Shown piece by piece: positions 8,284 to 62,575 of a DNA stretch of 64,000 nt. The notes below the pieces were generated by a model, which saw nothing but the letters and a program-made list of their open reading frames with translations, ran no database searches and was not told where the DNA came from. How positions within the stretch are numbered: the stretch's first letter is position 1; every line of letters starts with the position of its first letter. The translations under genes were made by a program, and so were the position numbers. This DNA is from Diphasiastrum complanatum (lineage: Eukaryota > Streptophyta > Lycopodiopsida > Lycopodiales > Lycopodiaceae): contig CM055102.1 of NCBI GenBank assembly GCA_029204225.1, positions 48,330,870 through 48,394,869 of the forward strand. The letters are read 5' to 3'.

Positions 8284-9904
8284 CTTCCACACTTTGTAAG
8301 AGTTTCGAAAGGTATTAAAGAAGATACATTTGTTCAAATGCATTTCGTTGGATCTCTTATCTACCATCGAGCACTTCAAGCCCATGTCTTTTTGACCTAT
8401 CCCAATGTTCATAATGATCCTAACTTGACAATTACAATTTTGCATTATATAATCACAAACTGGGAAGGTGATTTGCCACAAGTACTATACTTGCAGCTTG
8501 ATAATACGACTAGAGAGAATAAAAATCAAACATTGCTCGCTTATCTTAGTATGTTGGTGGAGAAGGAAATCTTCAAAAAAATTAAAGTTGGATTTCTTCT
8601 TGTGGGTAATACGCATGATCATATTGATCAGATGTTTAGCGTGTTCTCGAAAAGGCTTTCTCGTGAAGATGTGTTCACTTTATCGAAAATGGTATCTATT
8701 CTTGAAGGAGCTTATACTCCTCATCCCATTGTTGTCCATCTGAAGCAAACATTTGATTTTAGAAGTTTCGTGCAAGGTTTGTCTTTTAAAGAAAAATGCA
8801 TTTCTCAATTGAATGATCTCAGCTTCCAACATCAATTTCACATTGTAAAAAGGGATGGCAACACATTGCGATTTGGTAAACATTTGTCCAGCTCTTCTTG
8901 CTGGCTTTCAGAGATTGGCTTGTTATATCTTTTATTTATTCCAGAACGTATTATTGTTGGAGCTTTGCCAAATCGTTTGGAGGTGCATTATGTAGTTGAG
9001 CAATGTTGCAAACAAAATTTGGATGTTGATTGGAGGAAATGTTTGCAAGAAAAAAGGCTTCTCATTGAAAAAGCCAAGCTATATGCCAGAAATGTCGATT
9101 CAAGTTGGTGGGAAGAATTCTTTGAAGACCAGGAGTCCATACTCATGGATGTGACAACTAATCGTACTACTTTAGAGATGCCATTTTCTTGGCCCTCAAA
9201 GAGTAATGCAACGACTAATGAGGTTTCTAAATTTCCTTAGGATATTTAGCAAATGATCTTTGTTCCTTCTAGAGAGATGTATTTGGGAACTCGCAAATCT
9301 CGTCAAAGACAAGAAGAACTTGCTAGCTTTTGTAAAGAAAATGTGCAAGAAATCAAGGTGGGTACAATGGCTGCCACACTTGTAGATGATCATCCTCTTG
9401 GCCATCCCTTTTGGTTATGGAAGGTCGTTGATTTATCAAAGTCCGAAAATGGAGAGATTTGTATCTATTAAAGTACATTGGTATCGAACAAAGCATCATG
9501 ATGCATACACATAAAAGCATGTTCCTGAAATGATTGGCAACTCAAATGGTAAAAAGAATCGCCGCGCAATAAAAAATCGGCCCCACATAAGCGACCTTGT
9601 CCACATTATTGTTTATGATTTTGAGTTAACGAATTCAGGTTGAAAAACAACGAAGGAAATCATTCGACAAAGGCTGCCATCAAAAGAATGTGTTGTTGAC
9701 GTCGGGACCTCGAGAAGAACAAGAGCATGTGTGGAAGCTGACCTCGGATTGCATAGGGATGAAAATAATGTTTTGATTGATATTAATGAGCAGGATGGAT
9801 CTTCCACTTTTTTACCTTCTAATGATGAAATTGATGATGTTGAATCTGAAGGCGTGGACACCGATGAGGATATAAGTTTTGATACTAGATCCAAAAGAAT
9901 CTAA
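8284..9904 (+). pseudogene. DUF7869-type transposon protein, broken by stops and a frameshift
   Basis: The first open piece, ATG 8338 to TAG 9240, encodes 300 residues. It contains VLYLQLDNTTRENKNQ, then FLLVGNTHDHIDQMFSVFSKRL. This pair (LQLDN-x2-RENKN and VGHTHEDIDQ-F) is the hallmark of the DUF7869 family, abundant transposon-like proteins of plants and animals. NDPNLTI before it also fits. The stop at 9238-9240 and another soon after interrupt the frame, then MIFVPSREMYLG... carries on to HPFWLWKVVD. A one-base shift near 9455 leads into SIKVHWYRTKHHDAYT, another TAA, HISDLVHIIVYDFEL, a TGA, and a C-terminal segment ending at TAA 9902-9904. The family's usual N-terminal region is missing upstream. 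Function is inferred from family resemblance only. Confidence 0.7.
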
Positions 9905-27036: not shown

Positions 27037-30000
27037 AACTACTGAAAATGGCAAATGACGGAGGAATACCTAAAATACAAAGGATTTGGGCCTTATATTC
27101 GATGAGGATAAGCCTTAGTCTTCCTCTTATTGACATGGATTAAGTTGATAACATCCGGATTATTCTAAGCCAATTAACTTACTACACCCATGGCACAGGT
27201 TGTTCTCTATGTTACTCCCAATAACTAAGCATGCTAGGCCCCTATCCTAGGTTAATCACTAAGTTAAGGGCCTTGGTTTGGACCTAGATACGCAGAATAG
27301 GCCATTCACTCCCACTGTATCCCCAAAGTGGCGTTTATACTGAGGTCTTTCCTTTTATTCAATGGAATAATAGGTTAACAATATTCCACGTCCATTGGCA
27401 AAAAAGTAAGGTTTACAAATAGCAGCATTGTCCCTATTTGTTGCATCAGCATATCAGAAGAAGGCCATGCTCATACTTCTCTCATGAGACCTTTAACAAA
27501 GATTGATCTTCCTCGCGTCAACTCCTCAAGGTTGCATACAGATCATACACAACCTTCACAATTGCTGCAACAACGCTCTTTTCCTCTTCATACTTCCTTT
27601 ACAACTGCCTATGGATCCATTATGCACACCTGACTACTCTGATTCTCACGCAGTCCCTTCATGCTCTCAATTGGCTTCCATTTCAAACGCTGCCTTGCTT
27701 CCACAACGCTGCACACTGCTCGTCTTTTTCTTGTCTTATATGCCCTCTTTTTTGCAGCTGACTATAGTGGAACTTCTCAAGTCAAGGGGAGGAAAGCTCT
27801 AAACCAACACACCACCCATCGGGAGGACTAAGACTGCTCATCATTACAAAGAGAGACAGAAAACGCTATTGCCATTGAAGAATATTCACTTAGAAGCAAG
27901 GGTTGCTGCTGCCCAAAATGGAGTGCATTGTTGCCTGCAAAGTAAAATCTTTGCATCTTAAAGGAAGGCAGGTCCTTGCCACTTGCAAGGTCATCACTAA
28001 TCAGGACAACATTGATAATTTTCTTGGATTTCATAAATTTTCATTTAAGTATAGTACGTGGATTCTCCTATGACCGTTAATAGCATCCCTCCAAGCACTT
28101 TGACAATAGAATCTCAATAGAACTTAGTGAAGGAAAATCAGATCTTTTTTGAAAGATCCGTGTCAAAAAATCAAAAATTAGTGTTTTCATTGCTAGCTTT
28201 TGGAAGTTGAACTTTGATCTTCAAGTTCCCAATCTAAATGCAAATCCAATCCATGTAGAATGTGGCGTCCACTTTCTCCTCCAGAATCAACACTCTGATA
28301 TCAAGTTACAACTAAAAAACACACAAATGCTAGAAATACTGCAAGAACTGTGAACTAATTGAGACAAATGCACTCTAGTGCTCAAATCAAGGCTGAAATA
28401 CTGAAAAAAAAAAAATGAAATGCCAAGCTGGAAGTAGAGCACGAACTCTCTAAGCTAGAAATAAGCTTTACTCTCAAGCCAATTACCAATCAAATGAGGA
28501 CCCAATAGCCTTATTGATATTGCGATTAGGGTTGCAAGTTTTTTACTAGGCTGTGAGTCACCCTGTACAGCCCAACATGGCCAAATTGCAGTAAATATCA
28601 AGTAGCTAAATGCAGGTTTATTGGGGCAAACTCATAAGGTGTGAACTGGGTTAATTAAATTGCTGAACCAAATACAAACATAAGGGAACAAATGCTTACA
28701 ACTAACGAAAGTAATAACATGAAGACTTTGGCCCAGGCAGTTTGAATGTAATTGCTGTAATAGGCATGATGAGAAGGCTAACACAATGACAGCAAACTTT
28801 TTCAGGTTGAAAACCTATGTGACATTTTACATCTATGAAACCTTGAATATGGTCCTTCGATTTTCTACTGGTCAAAACTTTGTATACCTTCTGCTCGTGT
28901 GTAAAATAAAGCCAAGTAAATGTCAAGCCTCGATCTGCTACTATTTGCATGTAGATGTCTTACTGTCAACTGAGTGTTGATTAGGTTTATCTGATAAAAA
29001 GTTGCTACTTGATGTTTGTTTGATCCCATTTGCAAGTTACCATAAACCCAGTACCAAAACAAATCGGTATCATCTATTCACTACATGAGAAGAATTGATC
29101 CAGTCTGAAAACTAGCATGCATTCCTGGACAAGCTGCATGCAAAAACCTCTTACTTTGATAGTTCGATCAGCAGAACCAGTGCAGAACCACTCGTTACCA
29201 GGGTCAAACGCTATTGATCGCACCCATCCCAAGTGCCCGCTTATTACCTGAAGTAAAGTGGTACAGGTCAAAATGACACAAAACTATAACAGACAATGGT
29301 GCTACTACTTCCAGCCTAACAACAGCATTATATGTATGATAAGAATTTTCGGTGGACACACATCACATAGATGCTTACAGGTAACTAGCCATTAAGTTGC
29401 AATCAAGAACCTCTTAATAACCTTCAAGGAAGTTCAAATTCAATGCCTCACCCTATAATTTTTCCATGGAGGATGCCAAGAAGGCCGTGGCCACTTACTG
29501 GGAAGCCTCTTCATTACAGCTGCACTAGGTTGATATCTGGTAAGAATGAAATAACATTTGTAGTTAGATCGTCATCGATCATGCCACTGCAAGATCCACA
29601 CACTTTTCTACTTCAATTTAAAAAGGCTAAATATGTATCCACACCCCTTAGGCTTAATCGTCTGACAAATTTCCAAAGTTCACAGAAGCATAGAGTTCCG
29701 AAATATAACGTCCTAAATATTGAGGATACTGAATAAAAAAAATTTATAATGTGACAACTTCTTGCATCCAAACTATACACATTAATAAACCACAGCCAAA
29801 ATCTGATTCCGTCAAAAACTAAACCACCAAGAGAATCTACAAAAAGTTTCAAACAAAGCAATACGCCTCGAAATAAATAAGCTGCAGGAGTAAGAACAAG
29901 AGTGGCAGTACTTAAGAAATGCCATTGACACTTGGAACAGAACCGAAGTACATGTAAGTTCAAACTTATTCTCTGAAAGCTACTCCTGATAAGGAGAACT

Positions 30001-35070: not shown

Positions 35071-38000
35071 CCTATGGGCCACGCCCTCCAACCCCTCCTA
35101 TGGCTTGATCTCTCTCAATTTTTGAGCTCTTTCAAAGCCGTCTGAGGCCTAGACCATGGGCGCCCATAGAGCTTTCAATTGCCAAAATCCGTGGAGAAAC
35201 GATGAGATAAGGCCAACTTGAGAAAAAGACTAGGTTCTCTGGCAATTGGCAATTCTCCGACAGAAAGTTCAAACTTTCTTCGTGGTTGTTGAGTGGGCTA
35301 GCACGACTACTTCCTTGTTCTTACGGGCCACGACTTCCAAACAGGTGCATGGACGGTGAAATTATTGCCGATTTTGTGAAAAATTTGTAACCCTCACCCG
35401 GTCTTTTCCACAAGCTAACTGCAAAATTCTCAAATTTTGCATGTTTTTGACACTATCTATTGCTATGCACATGCTAAGGATACATGTACTGAGCTTGGCA
35501 ACATTATGTGGTATTCAGTAGGAAGTAACATCCACCACACATAATTATTAGAGCGATTCAGTGCAGTTCATGACAAACCTGTCTACAGCACTGATTGTAG
35601 CCTTATGGTCGACATTATTTCCTGTCCCAGCAACTACTGCATTTGTATCTCCTGCTCCTGCACCTTCAGCCCTATAAAAAGCACAAATATGAATGCTTCA
35701 GTTGCAAGGTCAAACACTTACAGATTGAATTTTGCTTATGCTTGTACAAATCAATAAGAATAGTAGAAGCTTCAAAATTGATCATAACATCATATATCTA
35801 CCATGTTGATTGTGACTGAGAAGCAACAGCCACCACTTGTAAGTCTGAATCCCTTGCACCAGTGACTACTTCCAAAGAATCCTTCTGAAAGGCTGCAAGT
35901 AAACATATCGCAATACGATTGCAGTTATTTATTGCACATTTTTCAAACTCACATGTAAAGAAAGGACATGTATCAATGCTAAGTCCATGATAACATCCAA
36001 ATATGACAAGCACGACTTAGAATTTTAAATTTTATGGATTCGACCTAGAAAGTCTTAGACCCTTAACTCTATCATGCATATTAGGACCATATGCTACAAA
36101 ATTCACATCATGAGCTTCCAAGAGTAGATGCAAGTCACAATCATAATAATGCATCCACATCAGCTTTTATGATTTATAGAGTGTCCAAAGTGTTAGGCTT
36201 TTGATTCCCAAGATGAAGGACAAATCAGACAATATTGAAGGCTAGAACTAAAAAGGCTCATCAATTCTACACAATTCTTTCAATTTATGGCATTCCCTAG
36301 CTCTTTCTATGCAAACCATCCAGCTGAAACTAGTTGAATCACCAGAAAAAGCCTTGAAACGTTGTTCAGCCCCATGTGATTTTAGTCTAGCAAAAAAAGC
36401 ATTGTAATAATGGGGTTTCTGTAAGGAGCTATAGGTTGCCAATTCAATGCAACCCAGTACCAATTCATGAAACCCCTCCCATTAGGAACTACATATTGGA
36501 GATATGTGCATCCATAGCATAATCACAATACACATTCTAAAACACAATCTGGAATGCGAACGAAGATTAGGGTTTTCCAGAATGCAGAAAAAAATACTTG
36601 CTTTTGTACTTTTCCTTTAGAAAATTTGCTTCTCCTTTCTTTAGGGAAATTGCCAAAAATATGAGCTAAACTACAATAAGGGTAGACAAAGGTTTCTACA
36701 CAGACCTGCTGGAATTGTTTGGAATATTGACCTAAAATCTGCATTATTGAAATATTTCTATAAAAAACAAAAGAAACTTGCAATAATTGCAAATATAGTC
36801 TAATTCAAGAAGAACGACTATGCAACATATCCTTCAATTTGTGCATTTTGGTGACATTCTCAGTCAAGCATAGATGATTCTGTGAATGGTCTTTATAAGG
36901 CTCAACAAAATGCCTCTTTGTTGCAGCTACATATTTGAACAAGCTATTACAAACTGATGCTAAACTTTGATTTGGTGCCTGATCGTAAAGGAGAATCATA
37001 CCACATTTACACTTTATGACTGGCAACAGATTGGAGTTCAACTTAAAGCCTGGAAAATTCGCAACAGAGCTTGTAGCATACTAACAAAAATATTTCCAGC
37101 ATGCTGATAAAAAAAATCCCAACAAAATAATTGTTTTTCCTATTTAAAAAGAAATCGGATTTGCATTCCATAGTTACGCACATATGTAGCGCATACATGG
37201 ATACACACACATCAGAAGTTTATTAATTAATATATAGTCCATAGATGCAGATAGCAGAATCTTCCAAATGCTATTTTTTTTAATTCGTCAAAACCTGAAA
37301 AAAAAATTAATACTAAAAAGAAAAACCATAACAACATCTAAAAAAAATTACAAACTGCATAAAAAAATTTGCACCGAAAGAAAACAAAAAAAATACCATA
37401 AAGACTGTCTTGAAAAGAATCTGTTAAAAAAAATTTCAACGAACATGCAATTATAATATATACATTGTCATATATGAGGGGGTGTGTGTGTCAGACATGA
37501 GGGTCCGGGCCAAAATGCCCGCGTCCGGCGTCCGGACCCGGACGCGCCATAAAGACTGTCTTGAAAAGAATCTGTTAAAAAAAATTTCAACGAACATGCA
37601 ATTATAATATATACATTGTCATATATGAGGGGGTGTGTGTGTGTCAGACATGAGGGTCCGGGCCGGAATGCCCGCGTCCGGACCCGGACGCGTCCGGGTC
37701 CCGCTTCCTTAGGTGTGTGTTATAATTATTATTCCTATTGTTATTATTAAATATAGCCAGACATGAGGGTCCAGGGCGGACGCGGGCTTTTCCTGTCTGC
37801 GTCCGACGCCCGGACCCGGACGAGTCCGACGCCCGGATGCGGGGTCGGACGCGTCTAATTTTTTTTTTTTGTTTGGATGCGTCCAGCGTACTGGATGCGG
37901 ACGCGTCCGGGCCCCGGACGCGTTTTTTTAATTTTTTTTAAAAAAGAAAAAAAAAAAAGAGAAGCGCGCGGGCAGCGGAACAGTCCGCAGAACGTTCTGG

Positions 38001-38251: not shown

Positions 38252-38392
38252 GTGTACGTGTGTGTGTGTGTGTGTGTACGAGACATGGTGTGTGTGTGAG
38301 TTTAGGGTTTAGGGTCTGCATGCTTGGGTTTAGGGTTTAGGAGGAGAGAGAGAGAGAAAGATATTAGATTTGTGTGCTTGTGTGTGTTTGAA

Positions 38393-38461
<69 letters not shown>

Positions 38462-41400
38462 CGCTCGACCCATTTGGGATGAGGTGGAGTTGTTACCCGA
38501 CAAAAAGTGGCATTGCCCTTTTTGTCGAAAGCAGTTCACAAGGAACGCCTCTCGGGTTCGAGCACATTTGGGGGGATTGCGAGTCCAACCCACAGGGGGA
38601 CGCTACGGGATCGGCATTTGTATGGTCATCCCCTCTGCGGAGAGGGCTCGCATTCTCGAGACATATGTTGAGCCAGGTACTGAGGCCGGCGAGCCATCCA
38701 CGAATGCCGCGGGCTCCGCTTCCACTGGTGCACCCATTGCCACCGCCACCGCCACTGCCACCGCCGCCGCATCCGCACCCGCCACCGCCTTCGCCACCGC
38801 CTCCGCCACCCCCTCCGCCAGTACTCCCCATGGATCCACAACCTCCACTGTTGCACCTACGTCTGTGCCACCACCTTCAGATCTGCACGGTCCGTCTGCA
38901 TCCTCCGCTTCCGCACCTACACCTATGCCACCACCTCCAGATCCGCATTGTCCATCCCCATCCTCCCAGCCATCCACATCCCGAGGCACCAGACAGATGT
39001 CCATGTCGGGATTTTCAGAGAGGGGCAACACAGAGAAGCCACTAGGACCATAGCATAGATGTTCTATGACTTGAACCTCCCCTTTATCATGGCATCATCC
39101 CGCATCTTTTGAGAGGCTATCTCAAAAGTTGCAGTCTGCGTGCCCGGCTACACACCACCCACAGCCGACACGCTTCGTGGCCCTTTGCTCCAGGAGCGGG
39201 TTGCATCCGTCAGAGAGAGACTAGCCGCATTGCAGGAGGCCTGGAATAGATACGGCTGCTCCATCATGGCTGATGGGTGGACTGATCGTCGTAGACGTCC
39301 ACTGATCAACGTCATTGTTTCCAGCTGCTACAATTCCATGTTCCTTCGCAGCGTCGATGCCTCTGAGGCAGGGAGAGTGCACACGGCCGAGTACATCTAC
39401 GACATCATCCGTGCAGCAATAGAGGAGGTTGGGCCACAGCGCGTTGTCCAGGTAAATTTTTTTTCAATAGTTGCTTGATACAAATGTTTCAATAGTTTTC
39501 GATTGATTGCAATGTGTTTCCAAGCTGTGCATTAATCGTATCAACTAATCGCAATAGGTTGTGACGGACAATGCGTCCAACTGTTGCGGTATGGAGGAGC
39601 TTCTTATGGTAGAGTACCCCTCCATTGTGTGGACTCCATGTGCCGCACACTCATTGGACCTCCTCCTGCATTCCATCGGGCACCTGCCTTGGGTCAGTGA
39701 GATTCTCGAGGGCACTTGCAGTTGTGGACTTCGTCACACGCAAGCGCCGCACCACCGCCCTTTTCCGCACATTTAGTAGGTAAGATGCTACTTATTTTTT
39801 GGCTCGTTCAAAATGCTTCTTATTTTTTCACTCGTTTCGTGTGTGCCTCTCATTCCGTTTGTCAATGCAGGCTCGACTTGAAGAAGCCCGCTCGCACCCA
39901 CTTTGCCTTTTAGTTCATCATGCTTGAGCGGCTACACAAGCTCAAGGGTGATTTGTGGCGCATGGCTACTTCTGCAGAGTTCACAGCCATGGACATGTCC
40001 ACGACCCCAGAGGGCTTGGCCTTCCACGAGATCCTCTTCATGGAGCCTTTCTGAGTTGATGTCCAGCAGCTCATGGACGTCATGCGCCCCATCTACTCTG
40101 TTTGAAGGCTCGTTGATCGCAAGGGGTGCACGATGGGCCTCCTATATGAGTTCATAGACCGCATAGGCGAGTCTCTCCAACGTTCTGAGCAGGACCGTGC
40201 CAGGTATAACTTTTTCCGTCTCACCATCTTTCCTTCCATTCGCACTCTGTTTCGTCTTGCTGCCGCAGCACGCAATCGTGTAATTGTTGCCTCCACATGG
40301 TATGGTCCACAGGTTGGAGCCTATTAGGCGGTTGTGGCGGCGACGACGGGATAAGTTTCACCGGCCCATTCACAGTGTGGCCCACATATTGCATCCGCTG
40401 TTTCAGAGCGAGAGGCAGTACGACGATGCAGAGTTGCGTGCGGACTGGTTCTCATACATCCGCCTCCTCAGCAGCGACACTGGTATCTGCAGCAGGCTCG
40501 AGGAGTAGAGGCTGAGTTACAGGTAAACTCTTGCTCTATCGTTAGCTTTCGTTCGCTCAATTTCCCTGCGCAGGCTCAATTGTACTCACGCGTATCGCTG
40601 CTCAATTTCAGGCACTGTCTGGGGCTGTTCGGTGAGGACCTTGCACGTGTCCGAGAGAACAGACTTATGCATGTATCATGGTGGGATAGCTACAGCGCTG
40701 GACAGCCAGACCTGAGGACGCTCGCGTTCCGAGTCCTTTGTATGTTATCTAATCTCATTCATCCAACCAGTTTCCGCATTGTCTCTACAAGGCCGGGACT
40801 CACTCGAGTGGCTGCCAATTAATGCAGGATTGTTCTGCTTGCGTGTGCGAGCGGAACTGGTCAGCGTTCAGCCTTGTTCACACAAACAAGCAGAACTGCC
40901 TCACGACTGAGCGATGCAATGACTTGGTGTACTGCAACACCAACACCAGGGTGGTTCGACGCATCGCGGACGCATGAGAGCAGGAGGCGTACGCTCCCTA
41001 CTGTTGCAGGTATATGTCTATGCTCTATCGTTTGCTCTCTTATTAGTTTAAGACAATCAGTTTAATGCCCTCACGATTGCTTCGACTATTCTCACGAATG
41101 ATTGACATGTGTAGGTCAATCCCGATGATTGCCTTCTTCCAGCGGCCGATCCTGAGGCAGAGCCAGAGGTTGATCCAGACGAGGCCGCTCAGCGTGCTCT
41201 GCGAGGTGATCCTGAGGATGATTCTGACACCGAGGAGCCTACCCCCCTCCCTGCTGACGTTCCATTGCCCTCCTCCTCTGATGAGCCCACATATGATTCA
41301 GATGAGATGGTCGACATTGCAGGGGATGGTCCACATGCCCCACCCAGTACTCCCGCTACACGCCCCCTTTCAGATGATGGCTGGTCAAAGTTTGTGAGGG

Positions 41401-44900: not shown

Positions 44901-47900
44901 AGTGGCAAGAGGCAATCTTTCGATGGTAGGATAGTTGCCTACCATGATGGTGACAGGTAACGGATAATTAATCAAGGCCACTGTGGCTAGAAAAAAGCTT
45001 CAGGACAGCAAATCCTTCAACATTAGAGTGTGAGGAGTTCTTGACACCAATAATATTATGGACGAAGCCGCCAATAATTTTAACCGTCAATTTGGGGTTA
45101 GCAGACGTAGCTAGCCTTGATAAAGCTTGGAGAAAGCTATCAGCATTCTTGTTATTTATTTTCACACGCTCGAAGGTAGACATAAAGATTTTAAGCATGA
45201 TTTAAACTTAGCGAGGCTTTAGTTACATTCCTGGATCATGACCTCACTTCCCTAGAAGTGTTTGAAAGAAAAAAAGTATTTCAAGAAGCTAAAGAGAAAG
45301 GGAAATGGGTTACTTAAAGAAGCCCTATTTTCTTTAATAGAGGATCTCCACCAAATCTAGCAGATAGGCAATTGGGCCTCAACCCATGCTAATGCCATGG
45401 GTCCCAATCCTCTCTCCTAAAGTTTGGTAGTTGGAATTGTAATGGCATCCACTCTTCTTCACGGTCGATGACTTACATGATTTCATACGGAAAGGGAATA
45501 TTGTTTCCTTTATAGATACACACGAAAGCCAAATCAGGGGGGTTCCTATTTATCAAGGATTTCACTGGATTTTAGTACACGAGGGAAGTGCAATCACAAA
45601 GTGGCAGGTGATCGAGAGGGGTGGCCAGTCTCTTCAGAGATTCGTCACAAAAATCAAGCAAGACTTAAGGCAAAACTCCTATGGATCATACTTTAGGTCA
45701 AGTGGTTGGATTGGAAAGAAGACATTTACATTGCAACTTATTACTTCCGACCATAGACTTTGAACTTTGCTGATAGGATAGACGAGACTCCATTTGACAA
45801 GAGTTTTGATAGGATTTTGGAGGACATCATGGTAATTGCAAAGACGGGCCACTCCTCCACTTTGGTTTACCAAGGTACCCTTCACTCCCTTCTCATCCAT
45901 TTCCCATCCAACTACAGTCTAAAAGTCCAAGGATATTTCCTTTCATCCTCCCTCCATTCTGCAGCTGCAATGGCTTTCTGAACCAAGGCAGTTATGAGAA
46001 AAGGTGAACCTAAGACTCATGACAACCAACCCATGGAATGATGACGAATGTCACCTCCTCCATCTACTCAAGCATCAAAATTGCCACTCCCCTCTTGACG
46101 TCAAGAGAGCTATTAGTAACCAATACCAAGCCGCATGTCGATCAAAAAAGGCCCAATTTGAACATCTCAAGCACAATAGGTTATTGAACCTATTTTTAAG
46201 CCCCTCTTTGAAGTCCCTTTCAAAGGCTTCCCAACCGCCTAGTCCCAACATCATTAATCTCCAAGCTTTGACCAACTACATCACCTCACTTTACAACATC
46301 CTCTCCACCCCCATATCTCTCTCACATAGACCCACAAGCTTCCACTTTTTCCACCCCCTTGATGGTCTAGCAGGCTATCAACAAACTTCACCATCACGAA
46401 GCCAGAGCCATTCCACATCAAGTTAGCAAAGTTTGCACATCCTCCCATTCAGCTCGAGGCGATTTTGCATTTGATCATATTCATCCAGCAAGCCAAAGTT
46501 CGTACACTCATAGGTCGTTGAGGTTACATGAGCAGGGCCATCTTTTCTCTTGGTATTCCAGGCAAACCAGCTTCTTAGATCATGTGGCTTATCCATGACA
46601 CAGCATCAAAAGGTTCAGGGTATGTTTAGGGAGTATATGCTCAGCGTGTTTGGGAAGGTGGGTACCCAACTACACTTCTATAGGACACATTTCCTACAAA
46701 AGACATACTATTGGGGCACCATACCTAGACCTGAAGATTTCACCCTCTAAGATTCACACTTGGGCAATTGCAAGTGTCGTCCCATCATCTCCAAATTGAG
46801 ACTAGCAAATATGAGGGTAGTCCTCAAGAAGACGGGACAACAGACTTTGTTCAACCAGGAATAAAGCTCTCTCTTTGTCTATTATCTCTTACTTATAAAA
46901 ATTTGTACAAAGTTCATGTATGCATGCAATGAGAATTTTATGGTATTAACTGTTGGATTTTGATGCTCAGCCTATCAATAATGAGCATTCTGAAAAATCT
47001 GTCGAAGTTCGACTACATTGACTTCGAAGTCATCGACTTCATCGACTTCGACTTCTCTCATGTAGATATATACATATGTTCAAACTCAACATCGACATTT
47101 TTCCCTAACTCCATCAAATCCGAGATTGTTGACTAACCCGACTTTGTCGACTTTTCACCAACCATCAACTAACCGACTTTTTCCCATCAGGGAAAAAAAT
47201 CGATCAAAATAAACTGTCAATAGACTTTATGGCAGTTCACCAACTATTGTACATACATTTATTGTTACAAGGCGGTTGTAATAAATAGCAAATAGCATTT
47301 CAAGCTAAATAGATATTTAACAGACAGATACTTAGCAAAAATATATTTGTCAAGTAGATATTTGTAATATAGAATCAACTGAGAACGCACTTAGTTGAGG
47401 GTTGATCACTAATCAATCTTCTCAATTAGATTTTTCTGTTGCCAGCGTTTTCACGCTCAACTATCAAGCTGAAGTTATCACTTCAAGCAATTGTGTACTC
47501 GTTGTTGATATTAATTAGAGTACAATTTTTGTCTCACTACTGTATTGTTCATTTGTGCTTATCTGAATCATTAATCTTGAATATTTCTACTGCTAACTGT
47601 GGCGCTTCCGATCCTACACCGCCCACTCTCGCTCAAGCTTCCGCTGCCAGCCATATTCTCGATTTCCAATGTTACATACCTATGTAACTAGCAGTACTTC
47701 AGACCCCTAATAGTCCATTTAGTGTTGGGGGCTAAATGGCAATGTACCCTTAGGATTAAGGGTATGTGCCCATGGATAAGGACAGGCAAGTGACTATACC
47801 TTAGTTGGAGGTATGGAGTGTCCTTGGTGTCCTTGGTTAAGGGCAAGTAGGTGTCTATGCCTTGGATGGAGGTATGAAACCTAGAGAGGTGTTAGAAAGT

Positions 47901-50900
47901 CATTGGATGGCTATTTTTCTAAACTTTGGGCCTCAACCTTGAACCATATCACTTAATTGGTCTAGGACCAAAGTATATATGCACAACTTGGGCAATGGGA
48001 TCTAGTAGGAGGGCGCCCTTCTAAAGTGTCCATTGAGTTCTCAACTCCCACAAGAAAGGCATTCAAAGAGTCATAGGTTATGGAAGGAGTCTCTTGACCT
48101 TCCATAAGCCTATGGAGGCTCTTGGAGATTCTTTAACTCCCCTAGGCTTCTCTCTCTCTCATTGGATGAGCATGGAACTCCATAGTGCATTGGAGGGGTC
48201 CATGGGCCATCTATATGAGGGTAGTAGGGCGCCCATTGTGGAGGAGAGATCTCTCTTGTTTGCTTTGCTTATGCTCTAGTGTTGCTACTAGTGTGTAGAG
48301 TGCTTTCTTGTGGTAGTATGCTTGAGGTTTGGATCTTGCTTATGGTATGGGACATAAGTAGGGTTTGGATCTTGAGTATGCTATGGAGTGTTGTGGTATG
48401 CTTGTGATTTGTTTATGGTTAGCAAGGGGGTGCTAGATAGGTCTTGCTTGGAGCTTGGATCTAGCTATGGTTGGGTGGCGAATACTTGAGGCCAGCTTGT
48501 TATCTATCTTTGTGTTTAAAGAGTAGGGACACAGGTGGAGGAGAGATCCTTAGAGGCTTGCAGATCCTTACTTGCAGGTGGAGGCATCCTAGCTTGGAGT
48601 TGGGGAGCATCTTGAAGCTTGCAGGTTGCTTGGAGGATATTTGGAGGCTCTACCTTGGATTTGGAGGACTTCCTCACTTCTACTTGTAAAAGTGGTATCA
48701 GAGCTAGACAAAGGATGGTAACCTTTCTAACCTTCTTCAAGTTCTATTAAGATCACCAACTAATTTTTTTTTGGGATGTATGCAATGCTCTGCACACGAC
48801 CAGACCTTGCATACTCAATCAGTTCACTTAGCCAGTTCCTATCGAATCTAGGTTTGTGGAAAGCATTCATGAAAGTCATGAAATGCGTTCAAGCAACTAA
48901 AAACTTCAGCATCTGATATGGAGGCAGCCAATCTGCCAATATTCTCAAAGGATACACAGATGTGGATTGGGCAGGAGATATCGATACCAGAAGATCAACT
49001 TCTGGATTTGTATTTTGATACAATCAAGGCCCAATCTCTTGGAACAGCCGAAAGCAGACCTCGGTAGCATTATCATCGACTGAATCAGAATACATAGTTG
49101 CCACAAATGCTACCAAGGAGGCAATTTGGCTAAGGCACCTACTTGCAGATATCGACCTTGCTCAGGAACATCCAACTACAATTTACTGTGATAATCAAAG
49201 CACAATAGCACTCTCTCTAAATCCGAGAATTTACTCTCGGAGCAAACATATCGAAATCAGGTATCACTACCTTACAGAAAAAGTGCAAGGCAGGGAAGTG
49301 TCACTGATTTCCTGCAGGACAAATTACTTCACAAAGGCTCCATCAAAGCTGCACCATCTCAGATTCAACGACATGTTAAATATGAAGATCAAAAATTTCC
49401 AGGATCCACATTAAGGGGGAGTGTTGGATTTTGATGCTCAGACTCAAATCCATTCAATAATGAGCATCCTGAAAAATCTGTCGAAGTTCGACTGCATCGA
49501 CTTTGAAGTCATCGACTTCATCAGCTTCGACTTCTCTCATGTAGATATATACATATGTTCAAACTCGACATCGACGTACTCGACTTGCTCGACATCGACG
49601 TTTTTCCCTAACTCCATCAAATCCGAGATTTTCGACTTACCCAACTTTGTCGACTTTTCACCAACCATCAACTAACCGACTTTTATCAACTTTTTCCCAT
49701 GAGGGAAAAAAATCAATCAAAATAAACTGTCAGAAGAATAATTTATGGCAGTTCACCAACTATTGTACATACATTTATTGTTACAAGGCGGTTGTAATAA
49801 ATAGCAGATAGCATTTAATGCTAAATAGATATTTAGCAAGAAGATATTTGTCATATAGAATCAACTGAGAACGCACTCAGTTGAGGGTTGATCACTAATC
49901 AATCTTCTCAATTGGATTTTTCTATTGCCAATGTTTTCACACTCAACTATCAAGCTGAAGTTATCACTTCAAGCAATTGTACTCGTTGTTGATATTAATC
50001 AGAGTGCAATTTTTGTCTCACTACTGTATTGTTCATTTGCGCTTATCTGAATCATTAATCTTGAATATTTCTGCTGCTAACTGTGGCGCTTCCGATCCTA
50101 CACAGCCCACTCTCACTCAAGCTTCTGCTGCCAACCATACTCTCGATTTCCGACATTAACTCCACTTGTTCTTAGATTGTAGCATGACAATTACCTTTGA
50201 TATTCAAACTATTGTCTGATTCTTCATGTGTACACACATGTCACCATTGAAACTCTACTTTGAGCGAATCACTCCAGTTTCCTGTATTTGCTCATGCTAG
50301 GGTTGAGGGTGTTACATATATCCATTCACCTTCTTGCATCTTTCATTGTTGTCTATACATCTTCCACTCAAAACATGTACAATTGATAAGACTGCCATTC
50401 TATAGTTTCCACGTATTCAACCCGATTCCCTGTTTTTTTCAGTCTCCAGAACCTTCCAAAGTGCTTACTATTTACTACATATAGAGGCAAAGATCCTCAT
50501 TTCTCAAATTATTGAGTTTGAGGTCACGATCTCTTTGTAGAGAAGTTCTATCTTTTGGGGATCTTTGGTAGAGATTTGTCGAAGCTCTAGGCATGGATCT
50601 TTAATAAGTTTTTTTTGTTGGATAATGCATTGTAACTGATATGTGGCTTTACGTACTCCAATGGATGCCATATATGTGAATGTGTTCATAACAATGTTGC
50701 AGTGGATCACAATCCGCTACAAATCGTTCCGGAACGCCAGCGATCCGCGACCTAAATCACAACCTTTTTTTTTGTGGAAAAAATACTAATGGCCAAAATT
50801 TTTAAAATCATCAATGAATGCATCTAAAGAACAATGTATTGATAAACTAAAAAGAGGCAAAAATAAAATTGCATACAGGCTAGAGCCATATTGATCCGGT

Positions 50901-53545: not shown

Positions 53546-55117
53546 AACGAAGGTGATTGATGAATTTTCCAAATTCCATTCATGCCATACGGTGTGAAGG
53601 CAATGCCAACACATGAAAAAAATCTTGCATGTCGAGAATTGGCTAATTAACAAATAAATAAACAAAGTACAAATGTTTACATGGCAAATGCTTTTTCGAA
53701 GTCATATTCCAAAAAAAAAAATTGGACAAGTGCATGAAGGCTCTATACATATTGAAACATGACAAGTAAGACCTATATTTGAGCTATCAAAACTCTCAAT
53801 GACATGAAGTTCCTTGTTGTCCTTAGGATGTTTAGTTACCTCTCGAACATGACATTTTAACGACAACTCCTTCTTCATCCTCTCTTTTGCAACCAGATCG
53901 TCGTCTCATTTGGCTGCATTCAGAAGTTATGTTGGGTGTAGAGTTTGTCCACGTGTGATTTTGATTGGCACTGATTTTTGTTTGGGAATCATGTGACTTT
54001 TTCATTTGCGTGATGCATCATGGGTGCACCTGTCTCTAAAATATAACCACCTTGATTCAATGCATCCACCTCCAATTGTTGAAGACACGTGCCATGTTGG
54101 ACATACCAGACATCACTATTAGTTTGTGGAGAGATAGTGATGTTTGGAACTACTTTCCAGGTGCAGGTGGCATCAGTGGCACAAAACCACATAAACTAAT
54201 TTGAGAGTCCATTTTGATGTTGTCTGGTTCAAAAGGTCAACAAGCAATTTATTGAATTGAAAGTAGAGTCCAGCTTATATCTCATATCATAAATATGGGC
54301 AACCCAATCCTTCACCCTATACACATGATCAAAGCAGCACTCCTGCTTGCATCCTCTTCACGAGATCCACTCTTGAAGCAGGCCCAGTTGTCGACATCTT
54401 AGATATATGGTATCATGCATTTGTCCAAAAAACAATAAGCCATGAAAATACTCATGCGCAATGTTCTTTTAAGAATATTCATTATTTCATGAGACAAATC
54501 AGTAGGTTGCAATTCTTTTCTTGCTTCTGTAATCCGCTTTGCACATGTAGTAAATTTCAAAAATGTGAATTAAACACCTAGATTGCAAACTACCAGTAAA
54601 ATGTTTCTAGTTTTTGGTATCAAATGAGATGAAATGGGAACACTTTTTATTCCTACACTCAACTCTATCGTCACATGTTGAGATTATGCCTTTCAAGTTT
54701 AATGGAGAAAATTTGAATATAATATTACAGTTGTACATTTTTGGCAACAGCATGGTAAAGTTTTTTCCTCGCCCATTGTTATGTGAGCTCGTGAAAATGA
54801 GAATGAAACAACGAGAGAAAAGTTTACAATAGAAGGTCAATGAGGAGCCAGTAAAGTTGTTACCCTCTCACCTTGTTAGCTTGTGGCTGCTCTTCATTTA
54901 GAAGAAGAGCGGAGCAAAGGCTTTGTTGTGTCTGTGTTGTGTGCGTGCAGGTATGAAGGGTTTGGAAAATTTGAGCGAGAGTTGATTGAAATTATTTGGA
55001 AACATATGGAAATGTTGATTTGAAGCATGGTACGTGAAGGTACTTGAAAGTCTTCTATAAAATTTTATCTTCTTTACCAGTGTTTGACTTTGAACTGCGT
55101 ATATCTAAAGCTTTTTT
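53546..55117. other. No gene recognised
   Basis: AT-rich, short open frames on both strands without family motifs. Confidence 0.5.
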
Positions 55118-55755
55118 TTTTCTAGTCCATGCTCTATACTCCAAAGTGAAGCTTTTTGCATGTTGAGTATAATGTTTTCACTGTTGTTAGTGGATTTTGG
55201 AGCAAGTTCCTCTCTGTAGAATGCTTTAGACAATAGAGTGAGTGGGGAGGGAGGAAAAAATGCCATGCCACTCTACTCTCCAGCAAGTAGAGTGGCATGG
55301 CCATTTTTTTTTTTGCCCAGTCCATTGTCCATAGCTAGAGCCTACTTATTATTCATCCACTCATTGTAGGGTAGGTGATAGTCACAAACGATTAGTGAAG
55401 AGGCATGTTCGGCTATTTGTGATTGAAACCATGCTACGGCTTTGATGATTAAAGAATCTAGGATCGTGAAGATCCATTTTGAATTACAAGTCTGTTGATA
55501 ATCACTAGATAATGCCGCAGTCTATGATATGAAATGTTGGATCCATTAAGTGATTGCTCTTCCATTTGGCACCATCGAATCACTAACATCAATTTAACTA
55601 ATCGCTAGAATAGATATTTGTATTTCATGGCTTTTTTTTTGCCAGTCCATGCTCTGTGCTCTGTGTTATGTGCCTTGAAGTGAAGTTTTTTGTGTGCTAA
55701 GTTTAGTGTTTCACTATTGTTACCGTTACTAGATTTCGGAGCAAGTTCAATTTTT
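55118..55755. repeat. Direct repeats flanking a hairpin
   Basis: TTTTTTTCTAGTCCATGCTC...GGAGCAAGTTC (55118-55210) recurs in diverged form at 55628-55755 (TTTTTGCCAGTCCATGCTC...CGGAGCAAGTTC). A third TTTTTGCCCAGTCCAT start is at 55310. Between them, 55262-55276 and 55287-55301 form a perfect 15-bp inverted repeat (GCCATGCCACTCTAC) with a 10-nt loop, extended by A- and T-runs. Confidence 0.75.
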
Positions 55756-56159
55756 GTTTTTAATGTTTAATTGTTCAGTTTTTGTTTGAAAAAGACAGTA
55801 AAAAAAAAAAAACAAGACAAAATGAGAAAAGACTGATGAACAAAAGTCAGAAAAGTCATTAGTAAGGGAAAAGGAAAGACATTATTTTTTATGAATAATG
55901 ACTTATAAAATCATTGTTTCGGTCAGATGTTGTCTCTATAGTATCAGAAACCTTCGCTGGGCTTCCAGACTGTACATCCACTTCAGATATATCTATATTG
56001 AGTTGGGCGAAGGTTCTTTTCTAGAAAAAAATTCATTTTTTAAGTCAAACGAATGATCATCAATGTGCCATTTTGAGAACCTTCACCAAGCACCTTACTC
56101 TCATTAGGAACGTTCATCTTTTGTCATCTTGATATTACTCAATTTGACAAAAGGACTCT

Positions 56160-57720
56160 CTATCAAACGAAATGGATAAAAAACGAAAAATACGAAGATT
56201 TAGGGTGGTGAGAAAAGCGACAAATGCGATGATTTAGGGTTAGGGTAAAAACAAAAAATGCGACAATTCAGAGTTAGGCTAAAAACTAAAAAATGCGACA
56301 ATTCAAGGTTATGGCAAAAAAGCCAAAAGTCTATAAAAAGCGAAAAACCGAAAAACGAATTTCTTAAAAAACAAAAAACACGAAGGTGTAAAAAAAATGA
56401 GAAACTTGCAGGTGGAATTCAATGGTAAAAATGAAAAAGAGAAGAATGAGATGATTTTAGGGTAAATGTGAAGGTAGAAACGCAAAGCTAAAACCGAAAA
56501 ACCCAAAGGTTTAAAAAAACAGAAAAATACGAAGGTCGAGGATAACGCTAAAAAACAAAAAAGCAAACGTTTGCGGGTATTGATAAAAAAATGAAAAACG
56601 AACAACGTGACAATTTAGGGTTGGAAACATGTGAGGGTAAAAGAAGCGCAAAAAATGCGAAGGTAAAAAGTGAAAAATACGAAGGTAGAAAAGCGACATA
56701 ATCTGAGTAATACGTGGTGGCAACGTGGTAGCTAGATGATATATATGTGATGTCCTGGCAAGGTAAAAAATTGAAGGTCTAAAATACCGAAAAATGTGAA
56801 GGAAAAAAAGAGAAAAATGTGAAGGTCGAGGGTAACGCTAAAAAATGAAAAAACGAAAGTTTGAGGGAGATGAAACAAAGGCGAATAATGCAAAGGTTTT
56901 TAAAAGGCGAAAAATGTGAAGGTTTCACAAAACGAAAACATGAAAAATACAACAGCCTTGGGCGAGAAAAGCGAAGGTCTTGGGTGGTGGAAAAAAACGA
57001 AAACTACGAGGGTGATGAAAAAAATATGCAAAAAGTTGGAAGACACTGGAGAAAAACCCAAATGTTTTGGGCAAAAATCGTGAAAAAAACGATGGGCAAA
57101 AAACGCGAAAAATTGATGGCTCAAAAAACTGATATATCGAAAAAGGTAGGACTCGAAAAAAAAATTTATGGCTCAAAAAAATTGGGAACTTGAAAAATTG
57201 GTGACTCGAAAAAATTAGTAACTCAAAAAATTGGAACTCGAAAAAATTTGTGACTCGAAAAAAAGAGAATTTGAAAAAGATGACTCAAAAAATAAAACTC
57301 GAAAAAAATTGTGACTTGAAAAAAGACATATCGAAAAAACAGATAACTCGAAAAAAGAAAACTGGAAAGAAGTTGTGACTCGAAAAAAAATATCTCAAAA
57401 AAACAGATAACTTGAAAAAACTTTGAAAGTAGAAAAGTGGATGTTCAAAAGAGTGGATGTTCGAGAAATGGAGTTGGGGTCGAAAAACGGAAGTGGATTG
57501 GAAAGAAGAAAAAGAATTAAAAAATGTAGATTATGTCAAAAAAAAATTGTGTTTTGGTTTGGTACGAAGGGTCAAAAAAAGTTCTAAAGGCTCGAAAAAA
57601 TAACAAAGGCTCGAAAAAATAATGAAGTCTCGAAAATTAACAAGTGTCGAAATTTTTTTTGAGAAGGCTCAAAAAATTAATGAAGTAGCAAAAATAAAAA
57701 AGTATAAAAAATTTTGTAGT
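56160..57720. repeat. A-rich degenerate repeat tract with CGAAAAA words
   Basis: 56160-56700: blocks of about 45-60 bp built on AAAAATGCGACAATT, TTTAGGGTTAGGG and AAAACGAA. 56700-57130: GCGAAAAATGCGAAGGT-like words. 57130-57720: short units of about 15-25 bp on (G/A)ACTCGAAAAAA, later GGCTCGAAAAAATAA. Long open frames here reflect composition and show no protein family. Confidence 0.8.
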
Positions 57721-57723
57721 TTT

Positions 57724-58825
57724 CTGACTTGGTCGAGATTTCAAATTAGCAAACCCGGTCGAGATGTATAAAGGTCAAAATTTGGTTGAGCTTTGACGTT
57801 GGTTATCCGGTCGAGATTTGATGGGTCTTGATCCGGTTGAGATTTGATCTTGTTTGGTCCTCGGTCGAGATTTGATTGAGATTTGATGTCCCAGACTCGG
57901 TCGAGATCTGAACGAGAGGTGTGGGCAAAATTTCTCAGAGAGGACGCGATTGAGATTTGCAGGGCCCCCGGTTGAGATTTGAGGCTTCTGGTGGTGTTAA
58001 CTGAGTCATGTGGCTCGGTCGAGATCTGAACCCTGTGGCTTGGTTAAGATATCAAGTGTCTGTCTCGGTCGAGATTTGAGAGAACGTCCCAGTTGAGACT
58101 TGAAGTGCGGACCCGGTCGAGATATGAAACGCAAAGTTGGTCGAGATTTGAGTGTGGCGGCTCGGTCAAAACCTGAGCCTCTCTGGCTCATTCGAAAGCT
58201 TAGTGTTGCTGGCTCAGGCGAGAGCAATGGAGAACCGTTAGAGAATTTGAATAAATAGTAGCTGGTCTAGATAACATTGAAACCTAATGGAGTCGGCAGC
58301 CTCGGTCGAGATGGTAATGAAATCGTTCTTGGTTCGGTCAAGAGTTGATTGCTCCGGATTCGGTCGAGATTGCTCTGACAAAATGCATCGGTCGAGATGA
58401 CAACCAGAACCTTTGGTCGAGATTCCAAAGAAGTCGTCGGTCGAGATGACAACCAGAAGGCGTCGGTCAAGATTTGAAGAGAATGTCCTGGTCGAGATTT
58501 GAAGTGCAGACGCACCGACATCTAACTAAAATGCTTCGATTGAGATCTGACTGAAATGCTTCGGTTGAGATGGGACTGAAAGCCTTCGGTTGAGATTCGA
58601 TGAATTCCTTCGGTTGAGATTTAATTGAATTACTTCGGTCGAGATCAGATTGAATTGCTTCGATTGAGATCTAACCAAAGTCCTCGGTCAAGATTTCAAA
58701 AAATCGTTTTTTTTTGTGTAAGACACCTGTGTCGGTCGAGATGGTAACGTAGGGTGACTCGGCTGAGATGGGACGCAAAGGAGCTCAGTTGAGTTGGGAG
58801 AGAAAGAGGAGTCGACTGAGATGGT
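57724..58825. repeat. Spaced array of about 35 GGTCGAGAT(T/C)TGA-like cores
   Basis: The core CGGTCGAGATTTGA, with GGTTGAGAT and GGTCAAGAT variants, recurs about 35 times, always in the same direction. Between 58360 and 58690 spacing is mostly 24-26 bp. Elsewhere it varies from about 13 to 50, and one gap near 58170-58300 has degenerate or no cores. Intervening sequences mostly differ, though a few units repeat exactly, e.g. TCGGTCGAGATGACAACCAG twice. No coding function is evident. Confidence 0.88.
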
Positions 58826-60600
58826 GACGGAGGGAGGTGCAGACGATGTGTAAATTGTGGGTAGAGGAGGATGTAGAAGTATCTGAGGTCGTATGTAGGA
58901 TGTGTGGATGGTAGTTGCAGGTCATGTTGGGCTGTGAACAGATCTTGAAATGTGCTACGTTTCTTGGATGGATCTGATCAGGGGTAGTGTTGCAACATTG
59001 ATCGTTTCAGAATGTGAGTGGGCAAGCGGCAATGAGTCAAATGTTTACAGATTCTCTACTTTAGAATCTGTTGGCTTGTCTTCTGCTTATAGCTTTGTTT
59101 CTTGTTCTGTATATTGTCAACGGAGACGGTGGGTTCTTTTTAAGTTTATCTTTCTTGTTTCAGAGCCCGTATCAAGCAGAGGAGACTAATTAACGTTGTA
59201 GTATTTGTCCTGCCTATCAGAGGACATTCAGGTTTGTCACTCTTGCACTGAAGCACATGCATAAATGACCACATTCAATCAAGTATGCATGCCCAAAACG
59301 TTCAACCATCAGATCAGCATGCAAAACCGTTGAACAATGACTGAAATCCTACTCTAATGTTGCAAAAACGAGTTACAATCAAATCTTAAACATTTGACAC
59401 TTGCATAAATCCACAAAACGAGAAACAAAAAGCTAATCTACAACATTTTAGAAGTACAAGAATCGAGAAACCAACCAGTCTTTTGATTCTTGAACATCCC
59501 AAGAACATCAAGAACAGGGTTGTAAGGAGATATGCAAGAATTACATCACAATCTATTTAGTTTACCTGAATGCTGATTTCTACATTAATCCACAAACAAG
59601 AAATGAAATCTAATCCACTCTAGAAAAGCAGGAAAACTAATCCACTCTATTGTCCACAACCACACACATCACTCAAGAAACAAGCATGATCAAGGAGCTC
59701 AATGGATGCACCAAAACTCGTGGAGGCTCTTCTCATTTCAGCATGGAGTAGGTACATTTCACAAAAAGCTCCTCTTCTCAAAGAGGGAGTCTCTTAAATA
59801 AGCAAGAGAGCTCCTTAGGTGGCATGAAGAAGAAGTAACACTCGAAGAAGGGTGCTGTCATTAATACTTCCTCAAAGTCAGATACACAACATCCATCATA
59901 GCAAGAAAAGTCAAAACATCAACATGCCAAAATCTTCTTCAAGTTTGCAAGAAGAAAGGACATGATATAAAGGACTGTAGGATTTTTGCAAACAAGAACC
60001 AATAGGTTCATATTGCAATCATTGATGCTTCTGAAGATAAATGTATTCCAAAGCTGTTTATGGTCGAACCAAATAACGTATCTCAACTCTTGTGTGACAC
60101 AACATGTGACATCTCAATGAGACTGGTTCAAGCATTTTCTTTGTCACATAATGACAATACTATTTATCTTGCTAGTGGCATTTCCACATACACAAATTAC
60201 AAGTGGAATAATGCTCTCCACTAGAGGTCACCATCAAAAGGTGGCTCACTCTACTTTCTTTAAGAGGGGTCTACTTGCATTTATTACTTTGCCTAGAAAT
60301 ACTAGTTCCTACATGGTCATTCCATCTTTCGAGATTCACCATGAGGCTTACACTGTTCTTGCTTGTCATTCCTAACTAGCATTTCTTGGCTCTCATACTC
60401 GGCTCTCAGTCTTCGTTTGTCTCGTCTTCTCAGAGACCTCCTCGGTCTAAGGTGAGAGGTGCTCTTGGGTAGCTCTGGTCGAGTATCATGGGGATTCGTC
60501 AGAATCAGCCAACAGTAATGACTAAATGCATGCAGAATGGTCTTTTTGTCTTGAATCTTGTCATTGATCTTGGATTTCAATCAATAGGTGATCTATAGTG
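58826..60600. other. No intact gene; one weak zinc-knuckle-like trace
   Basis: Mostly unrecognised. At about 59950-59985 a frame reads VCKKKGHDIKDCR, like the second half of a gag zinc knuckle without its first Cys, so a retroelement trace is possible. The end of this stretch merges into the LTR that ends at 60667. Confidence 0.4.
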
Positions 60601-61394: not shown

Positions 61395-62575
61395 TTGTCT
61401 AAATCACAAGGAATCTTCACTATTACATGGCATCTATGGATTTCTTCCAAAAGTACAAAAAAGAGAGCTAGGATGGCTCTACATATCATAATGATAAATG
61501 TTTCAAATGAATTGTTGTGTGATATTGGCTCATGTACCACATCCAAGGAGGCTTGGGACACATTGGAATCCATCTATGGTGGAAAGGTGAAAGCATAATT
61601 CACAAAGGACAAGCCAAGAGTAAGGGACAAAGAGCAACATCAACATTTCATGAAGGACAAGTCAAAGGAGGAGAGTGATGAAGAGTCATCACAAGCATCA
61701 ACAAGTTGCAAATCCAACAAGAAGTGCTTCCTTTGTGATAAAAAGGGACATTTTGCTTCTAATTGTTTCAAGAAGAGAAATGATGATAAGGTAGCAAGAG
61801 AGACTAGTTGTGATAAGCTTTTCAAATTTGATGCTAATCCTTGTGGAAGTGTGGCCAAGAGGAGCTTCGATCATCTCAAGGAGGAGGCAAGTGGTCTACC
61901 TCAATCTATGTTCCAAGATGGTGAAGCTCATGAAGATAGTGCTTTTGGCAAAAGCACATGGAGAGTTATTGCCAAGGAGGTCTACTTCTCATATCTATTG
62001 GTGATCCCATTAAGCAAAAGAAACTTGTCCAAGTAGTATTGAATGGTCTTAGTAATAAATTTTCTAATCTTGTTCAATCTTATGCAATCCAAGGAGAGCT
62101 ACCATCCATGGAGAGTCTACAAGGGGTCTCGGTGGCTGAGGAGAGTAGACAAGAATTCAAGCTTGCTAGGATGGAGCAACTCAAGGTTAGAGGTGAGGAG
62201 AATGCTTTTTCCTCTCATGGAAAAGGCAAAGGAAAATTGAAGACACATTCCAAGAAGGACAAATCCAAGGAGCCTTGGTGATGAAGACCCATCACAACCA
62301 TCAACAAGTGGAAAATCCAAAATCAAGTGCTTTTATTCTAGCAAGAAGGGGCATGTTGTCATAAAGTGCTACAAGAAGAAAAGGGATAAAGAAAAACAAG
62401 AAGGAAAACAAGGGAATTTCATAAATCAAGAGGGAGATGGCTTCAATGAGGAGTCACTCATGGCATGCATGTGTACATCATTAATTTCTATGGAGAAAGA
62501 TCCTTGGTGGGGTGAGCTCACATATCACAAGGCAAAGGGAGTATTTCTCTTCATTTTCATCATGCTCAAGTTCTA
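61395..62575 (+). pseudogene. Copia gag with rearranged and duplicated modules
   Basis: Module order: gag middle (61455-61598: KKRARMALHIIMINVSNELL, SKEAWDTLESIYGGK); zinc knuckle 1 (CFLCDKKGHFASNC, about 61727-61768); a spacer frame; the next gag segment (KKLVQVVLNGLSNKFSNLVQ to EESRQEFKLARMEQL, 62015-62190); zinc knuckle 2 (CFYSSKKGHVVIKC, about 62329-62370, second Cys replaced by Ser). In the sister copy at 1-2538 these gag segments are contiguous and only one knuckle follows. The gag amino-terminal 30 residues are deleted, frames change several times, and no protease, integrase or RT follows. It is a dead, rearranged copy. Confidence 0.82.

Follow-up and report, generated by a model that had tools for sequence, protein, structure and literature searches.

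A one-way array of a short kept core in Diphasiastrum complanatum: a putative protein-recognition array, probably of a decayed mobile element

Motif arrays in plant mobile elements and the locus

Arrays of short motifs in plant mobile elements are described here after the passages of the cited papers that deal with them. In Arabidopsis, the non-coding parts of VANDAL21 contain the 9-bp motif of VANC21 in one orientation and at high density (Hosaka et al. 2017, PMC5735166). This motif is often part of tandem repeats, and the targets of VANC6 bear different motifs (PMC5735166); multiplication of the VANC21 motif proceeds through tandem repeats (PMC5735166, PMC10398659). In CACTA elements of the Spm/En type, TNPA-like proteins bind many copies of 12-20 bp motifs in the subterminal repeats, which are located beside the termini in direct as well as inverted orientation and whose motif sequence varies between families (PMC2613891). 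Sireviruses harbor high-copy palindromic boxes, nearly all with a CGG-CCG core, which form CpG islands in non-coding copia DNA, together with multiple PPTs, purine tracts that recur ahead of the 3′ LTR (PMC2829016). Finally, in Retand elements, family-specific tandem arrays are frequent in the stretch from pol to the 3′ LTR, and their origin and function are given as unknown (PMC11963269).

Here, we describe a tract of three one-way arrays, termed A, B, and C (Table 1), in a window of 64,000 nucleotides of the D. complanatum genome (contig CM055102.1). With the VANC-target arrays as portrayed in those passages, array C shares a short motif that occurs densely and in one orientation in non-coding DNA; however, its motif is unrelated, and neither a VANC (DUF1985) nor a MULE domain was found at 27-64 kb. 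Like the CACTA subterminal repeats in their published description, array C comprises many copies of a short motif, but nearly all of them have one orientation (36 versus one above 8 bits) and termini were not found. A CpG-bearing high-copy motif is common to the tract and the Sirevirus repeats described above, whereas the core of array C lacks the palindromic CGG-CCG and an LTR pair was not seen around the tract. Tandem arrays likewise link the tract to Retand, but Ty3-type domains were not found near the tract, and the passages of PMC11963269 on the Retand arrays do not mention a contrast between core and spacer as present in array C. On our best reading, array C may be a relic binding-site array of a mobile element that works like the VANC-target or the CACTA subterminal arrays, without necessarily belonging to either group; VANC21 offers the nearest well-studied case.

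Three abutting one-way arrays

The first-pass annotation had reported about 35 cores in one orientation at 57724..58825. This claim is confirmed, coordinates included. On the + strand of the tract, a PWM of CGGTCGAGAT detected 39 cores with a cut-off of 5 bits and 36 with one of 8 bits. At the higher cut-off, 8 further cores were found on the + strand outside the tract (the other 62.8 kb) and 10 on the entire - strand, one of which is located in the tract (58062, 8.3 bits). All 17 occurrences of the exact 9-mer GGTCGAGAT in the 64-kb window lie on the + strand within 57.72-58.84 kb, and none on the - strand; among the matches listed in a literature text search for this 9-mer, all appeared unrelated judging by title. 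With up to three mismatches allowed, CGGTCGAGATTTGA matched the window 32 times, as compared with a mean of 3.81 in shuffled windows; 30 of the 32 matches lie on the + strand of the tract. A second copy of array C was not found within the 64-kb window.

The step of 24-26 bp that had been noted over part of the array was likewise recovered: 22 of 38 intervals fall into this range, five measure 47-49 bp, corresponding to two steps, and the remaining 11 range between 11 and 52 bp. The autocorrelation has its maximum at 25 bp (0.366; mean of lags 1-120, 0.257; sd, 0.024). Array C is hence composed of head-to-tail units in steady register, as an ordinary minisatellite would show. The kept block includes a T and, weakly, a C/T ahead of the first C, and conservation fades through a TTTGA tail that follows TCGGTCGAGAT in many copies. 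The sole self-complementary part of the core is TCGA. A likeness of the core to the tRNA B box was considered and dropped, as positions that we take to be essential differ. The 1.1-kb tract of array C is non-coding. Several ORFs of 45-100 codons on the - strand overlap it in different frames; a coding reading was rejected and these ORFs are read as a by-product, because the 25-bp step shifts the frame with each unit and the reverse complement of the core contains no stop.

Table 1. Features of the window (positions are those of the 64-kb window)
Feature	Position	Strand	Description
Array A	56186..57096	+	28 one-way copies; AAAAATGCGAAGGT-like core; irregular 14-92 bp steps
Array B	57115..57676	+	ACTCGAAAAA in 26-27 one-way copies; most steps 14-20 bp
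Array C	57726..58826	+	36-39 one-way copies of TCGGTCGAGAT; ~25-bp step; spacers largely free
Weak or lost cores	58163..58262	+	Roughly in 25-bp register
Local run in array C	58520..58672	+	~Six 25-bp units with spacers still in common; recent duplication
Composite tract A+B+C	56151..58840	+	CpG observed/expected and purine fraction by array: see text
ORF with DUF7869 match	8284-9240		Near full-length match, E 1.1e-48
Single WD40 repeat match	29152-29259	-	Stops masked; ~28 kb from tract
Copia gag pieces	~33-34 kb		DUF4219 and Pol_BBD (Pfam)
hAT-like gene pieces	38334-39710		Weak BED finger; DUF659 split between two frames
Decayed copia	61.7-62.6 kb		Zinc knuckle and weak Pol_BBD (Pfam)

The continuation of the tract upstream as arrays A and B is a new addition to the first-pass annotation. 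Both arrays run in the same direction as array C, the gaps amounting to only 49 and 18 bp. For array B, all nine occurrences of CTCGAAAAA in the window lie in the tract on the + strand, with none on the - strand. Arrays A and B are A-rich with a strong purine bias (purine fraction 0.71 and 0.69, respectively; array C, 0.55; entire window, 0.51), and each is built round a CpG. The 2.65-kb tract retains CpG in a mostly CpG-poor window, with observed/expected values of 1.56 for A, 1.72 for B, and 1.15 for C, as compared with 0.50 in the entire window; downstream, the values drop to 0.36 and 0.19. The sole other 1-kb bin with a value above 1 is found at 37-38 kb (1.39, 37001-38000), and the bin at 6-7 kb reaches 0.95.

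In array A the core is less strict than in array C, and the spacers keep some similarity. Far spacers exceed shuffles in A and in B (0 of 200 reach either), adjacent spacers of array B show no clear relation (13 of 200 shuffles as good), and transversions account for about a third of the core changes (26 of 69 and 7 of 22 in A and B, respectively). As A and B lack a contrast as clean as that of array C, the claim of a kept core with free spacers is limited to array C.

Kept cores and drifting spacers in array C

Array C was divided into 44 units by a phase-fitted segmentation, the first fourteen columns of which were learnt. Over all 44 units, the ten core columns contain a mean of 0.94 bits and the fifteen others 0.19, the latter signal residing mostly in the TTTGA tail; this contrast is lowered because the fit skipped some strong cores (e.g., 57898 and 58303). 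Eleven of the 44 units match no recognised core, in some cases since the fit had slipped out of phase. As indels could blur the spacers, a gapped alignment was made in addition, which, like the spacer tests, took the 27 of 38 intervals that measure 22-28 bp. Here, the core reached 1.42 bits, a value inflated by the recognition of cores through their likeness to the consensus, and seven mid-spacer columns -0.04 to 0.11, with information rising in the shoulders beside the core, which retain signal. Owing to these shoulders and to local runs, the entire spacer (0.22 versus 0.009 when shuffled; largest of 60 shuffles, 0.039) and the inner spacer (0.123 versus 0.059 for the largest of 60 shuffles) lie above the shuffled level.

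For the pairwise comparison, spacers were trimmed to their inner part by removing the four bases that follow a core and the single base that precedes the next one. Adjacent trimmed spacers are strongly alike, with none of 500 shuffles reaching their score (19 pairs). In 238 pairs more than 220 bp apart, the likeness is at chance level (74 of 200 shuffles as good); when left untrimmed, far spacers score above all 200 shuffles. Core identity, inflated likewise by the choice of units, is nearly flat with distance (0.84 to 0.81). The earlier description of the spacers as mostly unique has to be qualified for neighbours, which share them in local runs, most clearly at 58520-58672. These common spacers show that whole 25-bp units were duplicated, array C having grown in 25-bp steps through local tandem duplication.

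The kinds of change differ as well. For neighbours at exactly 25 bp, ten of the eleven pairs were used, namely those in which the next step measures 24-26 or 48-49 bp. Their cores contain 18 transitions and one transversion in 100 sites, and their inner spacers 13 transitions and 28 transversions in 70 sites. The resulting Fisher p value for transversions of 7e-12 applies to units with recognised cores, which inflates core conservation; moreover, this and the following p values are optimistic, because the units are related by descent and the counts of changes are not independent. When the phase-fitted units were taken, which are not chosen by their core, the contrast became smaller but persisted, with transversions at 20 of 150 core versus 35 of 105 spacer sites (p 2e-4; 15 pairs at 25 bp). 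With 43 pairs of these units, the corresponding numbers are 68 of 430 and 120 of 301 (p 5e-13).

These data bear on the possibility that array C is a plain decayed 25-bp minisatellite, the core of which seems kept by chance or through the choice of columns or units. The 25-bp register and the local runs with common spacers would fit such an origin, and picking units by their core does inflate the contrast. However, far inner spacers are at chance with cores at 0.81, transversions are rarer in the core even without unit choice, and the contrast of 0.745 observed over all 44 units was not reached in any of 300 neutral simulations (maximum 0.43), although each was allowed the ten columns that served it best. 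The simulation combined tandem duplication with mutation, contained no indels, and used few rate settings, and thus serves as a control rather than a full model. A minisatellite with even mutation is rejected, and it could be rescued if mutation were strongly uneven within the unit; overall, we consider a plain minisatellite hardly probable at all.

The first-pass annotation had named equally conserved spacers as the mark of a decayed minisatellite, and the spacers are not equally conserved. Its statement that the core is kept and the rest is free agrees with the column information, the spacer comparison, the simulation, and the transversions, and has to be narrowed in that the shoulders keep signal. 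Taken together, the spacers of array C drifted to near randomness and the cores did not; something held the core while the spacers drifted.

The departures of the cores from the consensus point to methylation. The 39 recognised cores contain 50 departures in 390 core sites; 39 of these represent C>T or G>A changes, and 32 of the 39 fall on the two CpGs of the core. Within the core CpG, C>T (23) exceeds G>A (9; p 0.02, not corrected for shared descent), and a T may be tolerated there. In the spacers of array C, CpG amounts to 0.60 of expectation, near the window value of 0.50, and 45 of the 67 CpGs of 57.70-58.86 kb fall in core spans. From the core changes and CpG contents, we infer that the array C tract was methylated and that the present decay of the core would be an effect of methylation.

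Surroundings and origin of the tract

The window carries decayed mobile elements, including copia, hAT-like, and LINE pieces; the reverse transcriptase presumably belongs to a LINE by its look. GA/GT microsatellites adjoin the hAT-like pieces at 38334-39710. Long AG runs occur in the window and, together with the element pieces, suggest a land plant. An LTR-like direct pair (46951-47674 and 49422-50158; 84% identical, ~2.5 kb apart) probably represents the LTRs of a truncated copia element, and the ORF 49019-49414 between these 84% direct repeats, which has no Pfam match, is by likeness taken to be copia RNase H-like. A 55-bp palindrome (55255-55309, 86% self-complementary) sits between 68%-identical direct repeats (55099-55209 and 55620-55748). 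The decayed copia gag zinc-knuckle region is present twice, as if duplicated (61643-61784 and 62245-62387; 73%; second knuckle by eye). No tRNA was found in the window.

Pfam scans were performed on six frames of 27-64 kb, with X at stops and E up to 0.01 for 27-41.5 kb and 0.1 for the rest, and on four ORFs of 1-27 kb. Neither MULE, CACTA transposase, nor DUF1985 was detected in the six frames of 27-64 kb; matches at 41-55 kb were weak and below their cut-offs. A VANC-target array in the strict sense would be bound by VANC, with loss of methylation, and would belong to an element that encodes its transposase and VANC, domains that a non-autonomous copy would lack as well. Inverted termini were sought between 48.0-57.7 kb on the left and 58.8-63.95 kb on the right, with target duplications of at least 4 bp scored (those of CACTA elements measure 3 bp), and convincing ones were not found flanking the tract in this window, which ends 5.2 kb downstream. 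After removal of low-complexity pairs, 46 inverted pairs remained versus 15 in the control with the right side reversed; the 46 are mostly A/T-rich and without target duplications, and pairs with a target duplication of at least 5 bp numbered three in the real as well as in the control comparison.

The tract could be the hypervariable, repeat-rich non-coding region of an LTR retrotransposon, for example between pol and the 3′ LTR, with a core that has no job. Three different one-way repeats abut, arrays A and B are strongly purine-biased, decayed copia gag/pol pieces lie 3-4 kb downstream with a zinc-knuckle-like stretch, seen by eye, at 59.9 kb, and the published passages on Retand describe family-specific arrays as frequent (PMC11963269). 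However, this reading alone leaves the kept core versus the free spacer unexplained. Furthermore, no direct-repeat pair, as LTRs would form, brackets 56.15-58.84 kb within the window, of which 5.2 kb are visible downstream, and no polymerase domain was found by Pfam at 41-56 kb. We therefore regard it as possible, though rather unlikely. The earlier statement that no transposon feature explains the array is borne out by what the window contains, which covers 5.2 kb downstream and has decayed elements around the array.

A host origin, in which tandem duplication enlarged an enhancer or silencer cluster built on one transcription-factor site, would account for a single motif under core constraint. 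Enhancers, however, usually hold fewer than some 36 same-direction sites, and the Pfam scans of 27-64 kb revealed no recognised host gene except for the WD40 match, a possible host gene fragment ~28 kb off. Such a cluster thus appears improbable.

The core might also be the target or source of a small RNA, or the tract a structured RNA. With 24-26 bp, the step comes close to the lengths of plant small RNAs. Tandem repeats can moreover be siRNA sources, as stated in passages of PMC10398659. Against this, a 21-24 nt RNA should place more than 10-14 bp under constraint, Rfam gave no match at gathering score, and folding was not unusual in 14 segments of 150 nt, seven per strand (z-scores -1.08 to 1.20). 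The small-RNA target suggested in the first-pass annotation is without support, and we judge an RNA role highly improbable.

Outside plants, a scan for three cores in prokaryote and virus collections returned 11 stretches in viral contigs and at least 120 in genome contigs. The richest 40 of 243 loci, viewed as ~95-base excerpts, mostly looked like short near-identical tandem repeats with other steps, and a phage collection gave no match at E 1e-5.

We propose, at about an even chance, that the tract represents a homotypic array, running one way, of a putative 10-14 bp protein-recognition site (TCGGTCGAGAT), most likely in a non-coding part of a decayed mobile element. Protein binding would most simply account for a core that is kept, a spacer that drifts, and an orientation that stays fixed; the putative protein-binding-site array suggested earlier is the best reading. 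The closest published parallels found are arrays inside plant mobile elements, and decayed mobile elements surround the tract.

In this proposal, a sequence-specific protein would bind TCGGTCGAGAT, many molecules side by side, and the core would have been kept as many adjacent sites had to be bound for recognition of the element, serving transposition, transcription, or relief of silencing. The 25-bp units spread by local tandem duplication, after which spacers drifted and cores were held; the element, presumably dead, would since have been methylated and would now be losing its core CpGs. Arrays A and B may represent site types of the same element that are older than, or alternatives to, that of array C. 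A bolder version, to which we assign little probability, holds that the 2.65-kb tract is the target region of a sequence-specific regulator, acting in anti-silencing or transposition, of a family of mobile elements unrelated to VANDAL, and that the three successive site types A, B, and C, each with a CpG at its centre, record switches of binding specificity along a single element.

A short site kept amid drifting surroundings would be the footprint of a binding protein, readable from sequence only. The set of tests used here (far spacers at chance, near ones related, cores flat with distance, core transversions rarer) is simple and usable genome-wide. Should raw DNA suffice to recognise such arrays, plant genomes could be searched for the hidden regulators of mobile elements and for the changes in their specificity.
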